Part shown: in pieces, positions 14,405-38,368 of the stretch
Position numbering within the stretch: position 1 is the first letter of the stretch
How the letters are laid out: every line of letters starts with the position of its first letter
Assembly: GCA_009784975.1 (NCBI GenBank)
Contig: WQXG01000029.1
Location: forward strand, 1 to 38,368
DNA from: Treponema sp.
GTDB taxonomy: Bacteria; Spirochaetota; Spirochaetia; Treponematales; Breznakiellaceae
Direction: 5' to 3'
Length of the DNA: 38,368 bases
Translations under genes and position numbers: made by a program
The notes under the pieces: generated by a model
Database searches by the model: none
What the model saw: the letters and a program-made list of their open reading frames with translations, nothing else
What the model was told of the DNA's origin: nothing

Positions 14405-14677
14405 CTAGCTTAGAGAAATTGTCAGTTTTTTACCAACTGCAAAAGCAAAACGTTCAAGAGAGTCTATCGAAGTATTGAATGTTGGATCTAAAATATTATC
14501 TACAGCAACCCTGGAAGTTTTCATTTTTTTTGCAACAGTGCTTTTTGTCAAATTTTGTTCTTCCATGGCTTGCCTTAATTGATAAGTAATAAGTTTTTTT
14601 GCAGCAAGTTCATTGACTTCTTCATGTATGCCCTGTTCTTTTAAGAAATCATCAAAATTTTGACCTATACCTTTCAT
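14405..14677 (-). CDS. Orphan XRE-type helix-turn-helix antitoxin-like protein
   Basis: The 90-residue protein has a C-terminal Cro/C1-type helix-turn-helix (LTKSTVAKKMKTSRVAVDNIL, residues about 43-63) after an N-terminal segment of the kind seen in HigA/XRE antitoxins. AAGGAG precedes the ATG. No toxin gene lies beside it: upstream is the invertible segment and downstream is the convergent kinase gene. It is therefore a solitary antitoxin or a small repressor. Its promoter overlaps a near-palindrome (14702-14715), consistent with autorepression. Transcription from the promoter now drawn inside the upstream segment would run into this gene. Confidence 0.8.
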   Translation of the reverse strand: MKGIGQNFDDFLKEQGIHEEVNELAAKKLITYQLRQAMEEQNLTKSTVAKKMKTSRVAVDNILDPTFNTSIDSLERFAFAVGKKLTISLS

Positions 14678-14732: not shown

Positions 14733-14764
14733 GGCTTTCGAACTGGAAAGGGAGAAGAATAGCT

Positions 14765-14792
14765 GGGAATTTAAACGTCCCTTTAAATTCCC
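14765..14792 (+). repeat. Left recombination-site-like palindrome
   Basis: Half-site GGGAATTTAAACG, core TC, then the inverted half-site with one change (CCTTTAAATTCCC). This is 13 + 2 + 13 bp, with a non-palindromic core that would give the site a direction. Confidence 0.8.
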
Positions 14793-14809
14793 GATTTTAG
14801 CCAGAAAAC

Positions 14810-14828
14810 AACCCGCCAGACGCGGGTT
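14810..14828. other. GC-rich hairpin near the 5' end of the segment transcript
   Basis: AACCCGC and GCGGGTT form a 7-bp stem around a 5-nt loop. With the promoter at 14842-14872, a transcript would begin near 14835 and form this hairpin within its first 26 nt. It could stabilise the 5' end or attenuate; the T-run after it (GTTTTC) is too weak for a confident terminator. Confidence 0.5.
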
Positions 14829-14841
14829 TCAATTTCATATC

Positions 14842-14872
14842 ATTATATCATAATTTAAGTAAAAATAGTCAA
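14842..14872 (-). promoter_or_regulatory. Leftward sigma-70-type promoter inside the invertible segment
   Basis: On the minus strand TTGACT (14872-14867), a 19-bp spacer and a perfect TATAAT (14847-14842). It is the best promoter match in the segment, and I found no comparable rightward one. The spacer is longer than ideal. As drawn it reads toward the XRE gene; inverted it would read into the lipoprotein gene. Confidence 0.6.
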
Positions 14873-14967
14873 GTTATCTCAATAAAATGATGAATTTTAG
14901 TGAATAAAATAGCGTTTTTCCGTTTATACCAAATATAAGCCTCACCTTAAAAAACCTTCAGATAGTT

Positions 14968-14995
14968 GGGAATTTAAAGGGACGTTTAAATTCCC
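14968..14995 (-). repeat. Right recombination-site-like palindrome, inverted copy
   Basis: This is the exact reverse complement of the 28-bp site at 14765-14792 (core GA instead of TC). It ends 25 bp before the lipoprotein start codon. Confidence 0.8.
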
Positions 14996-15020
14996 AATTT
15001 ACGATTACAAGGGGTATATT

Positions 15021-37337: not shown

Positions 37338-37363
37338 GGGAATTAAACGACCGTTTAATTCCC
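37338..37363 (+). repeat. Left 26-bp recombination-site-like palindrome
   Basis: Half-site GGGAATTAAACG, core AC, then the same half-site perfectly inverted. The non-palindromic core gives it an orientation. Confidence 0.85.
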
Positions 37364-37367
37364 ACTT

Positions 37368-37410
37368 TTAACATATTCCTAGTTTATCAAATAATATGTT
37401 AAATAGGCAA
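37368..37410 (-). promoter_or_regulatory. Possible leftward promoter inside an inverted repeat
   Basis: On the minus strand TTGCCT (37410-37405), 18 bp, TAAACT (37386-37381), four of six matches in each box. An inverted repeat, TTAACATATT at 37368-37377 and AATATGTTAA at 37393-37402, brackets the -10. As drawn it points out of the segment toward the kinase array; inversion would aim it at the gene at 38152. Weak by sequence alone. Confidence 0.35.
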
Positions 37411-37425
37411 GTGGTTTGCCGGATT

Positions 37426-38025
37426 TTAATTATTTAAACTTGTTTTAATAAACGAAATAACAGTTTTCCTGTCAACTTTAAACATGTTTGCAATAGCGTT
37501 TTTTGAGACGTTTTTATCCAATAGAGCCTGAATTTCAGTTTTACGTCTTATTAGTTTTAGCATTGCGGACTTCCTGCCTTGCGGTCTGCCAAGAATTACA
37601 CCTTCAGCCCTTTTTCTTGCAAGTGCTTCCTTTGTCCTTTCTGAGATTAGTTCACGCTCAATTTCGGCTGCCAGACTAAGACCAAAAGCGATTATTTTTG
37701 CCTGAATTGTGCCGTCTAAGCGGTAATTTCCCTTAGTTGTCCATATGTTTACGCCATTTTGTGTAAGATAGTTCAATATTGTCATTACCATAAACAAATC
37801 TCTGCCTAAACGTGACAGTTCGGAACAGATGATTAAATCGTCTGTTTTTACCTTTGCAAGCAGCGATCCTAGCAGGCGTTTTTCAGGCGATTGCCTTCCA
37901 CTGATTGTTTCCTCAATCCATTGTTCAATAACGATGTTGTTCATTGAACAAAACCTCTCGATTTCAAACCGTTGGTTTTCAACTGTTTGTTTGTCTTTGC
38001 TTACTCTGATGTAACCATAAATCAT
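37426..38025 (-). CDS. mpi: Mpi-family serine recombinase (DNA invertase)
   Basis: The 199-residue protein belongs to the small serine recombinases. The catalytic Ser9 is in YIRVSKDKQ, followed by TVENQRFEIE, WIEETISGRQ, DDLIICSELSRLGRD and EIERELISERTKEALARKRAEG. The C-terminal helix-turn-helix is ASN-rich (VSKNAIANMFKVDRKTVISF). The wording of these motifs matches my memory of Mpi, the Bacteroides fragilis invertase that flips many capsule promoters, more closely than Hin or Tn3 resolvases. CGGAGG lies before the ATG. The gene sits between inverted 26-bp sites, as expected for an invertase acting on its own locus. The half-sites recur before the giant lipoprotein, so it may act at both loci. 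The symbol denotes family, not proven orthology. Confidence 0.9.
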   Translation of the reverse strand: MIYGYIRVSKDKQTVENQRFEIERFCSMNNIVIEQWIEETISGRQSPEKRLLGSLLAKVKTDDLIICSELSRLGRDLFMVMTILNYLTQNGVNIWTTKGNYRLDGTIQAKIIAFGLSLAAEIERELISERTKEALARKRAEGVILGRPQGRKSAMLKLIRRKTEIQALLDKNVSKNAIANMFKVDRKTVISFIKTSLNN

Positions 38026-38091
38026 AATTTCCTCCGATAATATTTGTTAGAAAATTCTTGTCTTTATCTTCAAAAAAAACAGCAAAAAGTT

Positions 38092-38117
38092 GGGAATTAA
38101 ACGGTCGTTTAATTCCC
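38092..38117 (-). repeat. Right 26-bp recombination-site-like palindrome, inverted copy
   Basis: Exact reverse complement of 37338-37363 (core GT). It lies between the recombinase promoter region and the ribosome binding site of the gene at 38152. Confidence 0.85.
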
Positions 38118-38151: not shown

Positions 38152-38368
38152 ATGAAACACCTTACAATTATGAGTAAAATGGGTATAAAACCCTGCCTTT
38201 TATTCGTAACCTTCATCATCATGGCAATAAGCGCTTATGCACAAACAGATGAACCGCAAACAGACGAAATATGGCGACATAATTTCGCCATCGGATTAGG
38301 ACCCGAAATTAATAAACATTCCCCGCAAGGGTATGCAGGGGGACTATCGCTGAATTTTGACTACAACC
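38152..38368 (+). CDS. Outer-membrane-type exported protein, cut by the window edge
   Basis: TAGGAGG lies just before the ATG, and 72 codons are visible before the edge. A signal peptide (PCLLFVTFIIMAISAYAQ) is followed by a polar stretch (TDEPQTDEIW) and then alternating strand-like sequence (HNFAIGLGPEI, YAGGLSLNFDY). This is typical of an outer-membrane beta-barrel protein at its first strands. The function cannot be told from this fragment. With only 34 bp between the recombination-site-like palindrome and the start codon, expression probably depends on a promoter inside the invertible segment, making it a candidate phase-variable surface protein. Confidence 0.75.
   Translation, partial: MKHLTIMSKMGIKPCLLFVTFIIMAISAYAQTDEPQTDEIWRHNFAIGLGPEINKHSPQGYAGGLSLNFDYN

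Follow-up and report, generated by a model that had tools for sequence, protein, structure and literature searches.

The region immediately upstream of a giant GLUG lipoprotein gene in this Treponema contig is very probably a phase-variation switch that is run by a serine recombinase of the Mpi family and sets expression of the lipoprotein ON or OFF. The DNA analyzed, referred to here as the window, is the whole 38,368-nucleotide stretch corresponding to contig C29 of a metagenome-assembled genome (MAG) of 2.6 Mb (73 contigs, 95% complete) that probably originates from a termite gut. An invertible promoter of the Bacteroides type had originally been proposed from the window alone. This reading is now supported by the occurrence of both interior orientations among paralogous cassettes with constant flanks, by a recombinase that matches the Mpi model, and by a related recombinase lying beside an exact copy of the 28-bp site in another species. 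Several elements were not part of the original prediction: the OFF state of the window cassette, the terminator-like hairpin that follows its promoter, the set of ∼20 cassettes to which it belongs, the presence of both orientations in this set, the family of lipoproteins encoded next to the cassettes, and the association of the site with Mpi-type recombinases.

The window cassette is bounded by identical, near-palindromic 28-bp sites in inverted orientation (14765–14792 and 14968–14995) that enclose 175 bp, as had been described, and with one extra base the exact inverted repeat reaches a maximum of 29 nt (14764–14792 / 14968–14996). Within distances below 500 bp, the longest exact inverted repeat was thus 29 nt in the window, compared with 11–14 nt in 20 simulated first-order Markov versions of it. 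The predicted TTGACT-N19-TATAAT promoter was found in the segment and occurs only once in the window, on the minus strand, a direction that the earlier description had not stated. Its -35/-10 spacing of 19 is above the ideal, which is offset by an extended -10 element (TGATATAAT). When 17 cassette interiors from this genome were aligned (62–75% identity between the window interior and the others), TTGAC was conserved in 16 (C9 has ATGAC) and TATAAT in all 14 that reach through the promoter. Because the minus-strand promoter faces away from the lipoprotein gene, the assembled state of the window cassette corresponds to OFF. In this state the promoter reads toward a minus-strand gene (14405–14677) for a small helix-turn-helix (HTH) protein with a sub-threshold match to HTH_37. 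On the other side, the distance of 25 nt between the right site and the ATG (15021) was borne out, and so was the 1872-residue GLUG lipoprotein encoded downstream; the sole candidate for a ribosome-binding site in these 25 nt is AAGGGG. The coordinates of these and other features are collected in the table.

Features of the window discussed in the text (plus and minus denote strands; a dot marks a feature without strand).
Feature	Position	Strand	Remarks
Left (far-side) recombination site	14765..14792	+	outer half GGGAATTTAAACG, central TC, inner half CCTTTAAATTCCC
Putative invertible segment, 175 bp	14793..14967	.	assembled OFF; alignment of 17 interiors
Terminator-like / leader hairpin (predicted)	14810..14828	-	just downstream of cassette promoter
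Predicted promoter TTGACT-N19-TATAAT, extended -10	14842..14872	-	points away from lipoprotein
Right (gene-side) recombination site	14968..14995	-	same as left site, inverted
Candidate ribosome-binding site AAGGGG	15009..15014	+	by eye; sole candidate
Giant GLUG lipoprotein gene, 1872 aa	15021..20639	+	behind switch
26-bp site, central AC	37338..37363	+	3' side of recombinase
Weak candidate promoter TTGCCT-N18-TAAACT	37381..37410	-	in recombinase segment; by eye; conserved on C36
Mpi-family serine recombinase, 199 aa	37426..38025	-	one of four in genome
26-bp site, central AC, inverted	38092..38117	-	34 bp before start codon of next gene
Exported protein gene, start	38152..38368	+	behind recombinase segment; runs off window

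A hairpin with a stem of 5–7 bp is predicted ∼15 nt past TATAAT, and it scores as terminator-like. With stems assigned by hand in 13 interiors, the promoter strand allows standard pairing at 64 of the 65 stem positions, and the changes observed on that strand consist of seven T.G pairs and one double change from C-G to T-A. In the ON state, too, a weak terminator-like hairpin would lie between the promoter and the lipoprotein gene. The leader hairpin may function in message protection or attenuation. A search of the window against Rfam returned zero matches.

Similar cassettes of ∼230 bases are present in ∼20 copies in this genome, and these distant copies have their sites in common; both sites are readable in 11 of them. 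The 17 exact TTAANCGNCCNTTTAA cores in the 2.6 Mb all map either to a cassette or to one of the recombinase segments (C29, C36). In most cassettes, purine-rich repeats (GCGCGGAGGACGCGGAG..., ACCACGAACCGCACGAACGG...) recur in the far flank, for example at L009 2170–2281; they are absent from the window.

Seventeen interiors could be oriented, a comparison made between paralogues of one genome in which C51 was assigned by eye after the script had left it undecided and the gene side of contig-edge cassettes was taken from half-site and flank type. The interior points away from the gene in 11 of them (OFF: C29, C2, C8, C9, C16, C50, C12, C63, C44, C25, C54) and toward it in six (ON: C13, C32, C40, C41, C51, C65). 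The cassette has the organization of an inverton, with a promoter between inverted repeats adjoining a gene and with both orientations existing, here between paralogous cassettes and not at one locus. The clearest pair is formed by C2 (OFF) and C13 (ON), whose interiors are 93% identical and opposite in orientation and which share their outer half-sites and flanks. A second pair, C25 (OFF) and C32 (ON), is 99% identical over the 107 readable bp of C25 and likewise opposite, the gene of C32 being off its contig and its gene side assigned indirectly. At least four changes of orientation are needed on a tree of the interiors.

The half-sites follow a consistent pattern. In nine of the 11 complete cassettes, the outer half next to the gene is of the AAACG type (GGGAATTTAAACG) and its far-side counterpart has another sequence, whichever way the interior is oriented. 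Two cassettes deviate: C29 carries AAACG at both ends, and in C12 AAAGG is found toward the gene and AAACG away from it. All sites of the TC class have identical inner halves. The central dinucleotide is matched between the two sites of all 11 complete cassettes, being TC in nine and AC in two. Outer halves that stay with the flanks while the interior is flipped are the expected outcome if strands are exchanged at the central 2 bp.

Cassettes also coincide with contig ends far more often than chance would have it: 13 of 20 are within 150 bp of one, compared with an expectation of 0.8%. Three contigs (C27, C26, and C20) end 0, 2, and 4 bp past the inner edge of a site, although beyond 38 bp their combined flank and site sequence matches no other cassette. 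Such ends would be expected if both orientations were present in the reads. Repeats or low coverage may contribute in part to the contig ends at cassettes.

All eight readable genes beside cassettes, some of them readable only in part, belong to one family of giant lipoproteins (C29, C16, C40, C50, C44, C63, C9, C12). They have in common a signal peptide and a conserved cysteine followed by the motif C[DE]..D..F...ID.E.AW.NA. Full-length reading frames range from 1126 to 1872 aa, and the distance from site to gene is 25–35 bp. Contig C7 starts within a gene-side site and encodes a further member of the family. Divergent homologues on C28 and C73 of the same genome have no such site upstream. 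Among homologues in relatives, no consequential inverted repeats were found upstream where the N terminus could be placed, a comparison covering about half of the loci. The lipoprotein genes begin with 7-bp repeats of the AAAGAAC type, and C44 (L113) is one unit short relative to L109, L111, and L115, which puts its ATG next to the ribosome-binding site out of frame. Slippage of the 7-bp repeats could be a second on/off layer for these genes.

A candidate for the enzyme is encoded near the end of the window. With a score of 275.9, the product of this gene passes the NCBIfam model NF009949 for the master DNA invertase Mpi family (cut-off, 272), as do those of the other three resolvase-family genes in the genome (290.8, 315.3, and 273.9). 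It is recognized by the Pfam Resolvase model, its sequence matches chains of gamma-delta resolvase and DNA invertases, and alignment by eye revealed an IRVS motif and an HTH-like C-terminal region. Match to the curated family model is thus accompanied by the resolvase/invertase fold with its serine nucleophile and C-terminal HTH that are expected of the Mpi family. The closest named relatives of the enzyme are from Treponema MAGs.

The recombinase gene itself is enclosed by a pair of inverted sites, and the inner 16 bp of the cassette sites are identical to theirs at 14 positions (TTAAACGTCCCTTTAA versus TTAAACGACCGTTTAA), slightly more than had been claimed. The same arrangement is found on C36: on both contigs, inverted sites sharing the core CG-AC-CG delimit a segment that contains the recombinase and directly precedes one of two near-identical genes for an exported protein. 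This gene is placed relative to the recombinase segment just as the lipoprotein gene is relative to the switch, and the weak candidate promoter in the segment would face it after inversion. The in-window part of the exported protein has no match in Pfam. The C29 and C36 contigs end at the same base of this gene.

The sites of the window recombinase are one base shorter per half than those of the cassette and have a central AC in place of TC. Because its own sites are thus 26 bp with AC and those of the cassette 28 bp with TC, the window recombinase may not be the enzyme that acts on this cassette. By eye, RKTVxSFI-like recognition helices are common to the C37 enzyme and the four recombinases that have sites of this kind close by, and RMTV is read in that of C33 and most relatives without flanking sites; a link between helix pattern and site presence is suggestive only at the level of these alignments. 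When DNA-binding regions were compared by similarity with that of a recombinase from another species of the genus (G010), no enzyme stood out clearly as the one acting on the cassettes. The C37 recombinase (L038, around 1440–2200) is preceded by an apparent decayed half-site (AAATAAATTCCCAATTTG) and followed directly by a lipoprotein-family fragment.

When 200 genomes of the family were searched, only this one had the site pattern, apart from one site in G010. This single site is a perfect 28-bp TC site 57 bp past the stop codon of a related Mpi-type gene, a position equivalent to that of the left site of the window recombinase. In G008, a recombinase is flanked by sites that share the CGACCG core but differ in their arms, and the only copy of the G008 site found in that genome is the one at the recombinase. 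The palindrome GTTGTTCGGAAACTTCAGTTTCTGAACAAC occurs twice in the same direction around a G038 recombinase (L092 463–492 and 1701–1730), and a similar palindrome is present in L036. No exact copy of the 28-bp site was found in viral contigs.

In the mechanism we propose, an Mpi-family serine recombinase would cut both inverted 28-bp sites at the central TC, and the 175-bp segment between them would flip. In the ON state, the outward promoter of the segment would face the giant GLUG lipoprotein gene; in the OFF state, as assembled here, it would face away and its transcript would run into the terminator-like hairpin. With ∼20 cassettes, each cell could show a random subset of its surface lipoprotein repertoire, since every readable gene beside a cassette encodes a paralogous giant lipoprotein. 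Inversion of the segment in living cells, activity of the cassette promoter, and surface display of the lipoproteins are all presumed here on the basis of sequence. A more elaborate scheme of layered antigen switching, in which invertible Mpi-type genes and separately addressed TC and AC sub-regulons over the ∼20 cassettes are combined with leader-hairpin and 7-bp-repeat layers, is a tentative extension that we regard as possible and somewhat doubtful.

Other explanations were weighed against this mechanism. The ∼20 similar copies in one genome, with nearly none in the 199 other genomes of the family, and the resemblance of the cassette ends to those around the recombinase gene would suit a MITE- or REPIN-like mobile element that is non-autonomous, has palindromic ends, and was dispersed by the recombinase, coming to rest before genes in either orientation. 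However, both the gene-side leader and the purine-rich far flank recur between copies, all readable neighboring genes belong to one family and lie at 25–35 bp, and the outer half-sites stay with the flank when the interior flips, whereas insertion would carry the outer halves along. We therefore consider a mobile element very unlikely. Membership among MITEs or REPINs, in which the ends are inseparable from the interior and insertion places are unrelated, was itself considered and rejected, the outer half-sites and flanks being fixed.

Still less credence is given to a fixed regulatory region in which the palindromes are terminators or operators and the promoter serves the leftward HTH gene. 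In the window the promoter does point left, and palindrome and hairpin score as terminator-like, but a separate TTGACA is present upstream of the HTH gene (identified by eye) and the interior is reversed in six paralogous cassettes. Moreover, fixed palindromes leave the matched central dinucleotides and the sites around recombinases unexplained. Least credible of all, and in our estimation close to negligible, is that the opposite orientations are assembly errors caused by the inverted repeats. The genome is a metagenome assembly with many breaks at cassettes, yet repeats of 28–29 bp are shorter than the usual read length, and seven cassettes more than 500 bp from contig ends include both states (C40 ON; C29, C16, C50, C12, C63, and C9 OFF). 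Site-specific inversion of a promoter segment remains the explanation that we favor.

Regulons of invertible promoters controlled by a master serine invertase are known chiefly from Bacteroidales of the human gut. If our reading is true, ∼20 switches before giant surface lipoproteins would represent the same logic in a gut-symbiotic spirochaete and would generate a large combinatorial surface repertoire, with possible uses in phage escape, attachment, and competition. A non-exhaustive search of the literature for invertible promoters, invertons, and DNA inversion in Treponema and spirochaetes found no such system, and putative inversions have been reported in one of eight spirochaete species (PMC5903667). 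In Bacteroides fragilis, the serine recombinase Mpi inverts 13 regions, seven of which are capsule promoters (PMC4747536, PMC5903667). The system described here resembles that regulon in its Mpi-family serine recombinase, its many distant promoter segments bounded by inverted repeats, and its surface targets. It differs in its spirochaete host, in targeting one giant lipoprotein family and not capsule operons, and in its promoter, which is of a sigma-70-like extended -10 type in contrast to the Bacteroides -7 element TAnnTTTG. Further differences are the two Mpi genes that lie inside their own inverted-repeat segments and the existence of two central-dinucleotide classes.

The hix sites recognized by Hin of Salmonella are 26 bp long, with a 2-bp core between halves of 12 bp each. 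The segment at 37338–38117, with 26-bp sites and the recombinase inside what is probably an invertible segment, is reminiscent of this flagellar switch (PMC5903667). In contrast to Hin/hix, sites of this kind also flank many segments elsewhere in the genome that contain no recombinase. A surface lipoprotein family that is varied by site-specific recombination is likewise known in Mycoplasma agalactiae, where the recombinase, Xer1, is a tyrosine recombinase of the Xer type. The likeness to this Vpma system (PMC5634654, PMC2268961) is in the outcome, and the arrangement is different: there, a Xer-type recombinase acts within the gene family, whereas here a separate promoter segment would serve each gene, and the recombinases belong to the serine type. 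Within the genus itself, phase variation by simple sequence repeats (SSRs) has been described in Treponema pallidum (PMC11868660), and a comparable role might be played by the 7-bp repeats with which the lipoprotein genes begin; that system operates by repeat slippage, while the switch proposed here would operate by DNA inversion.
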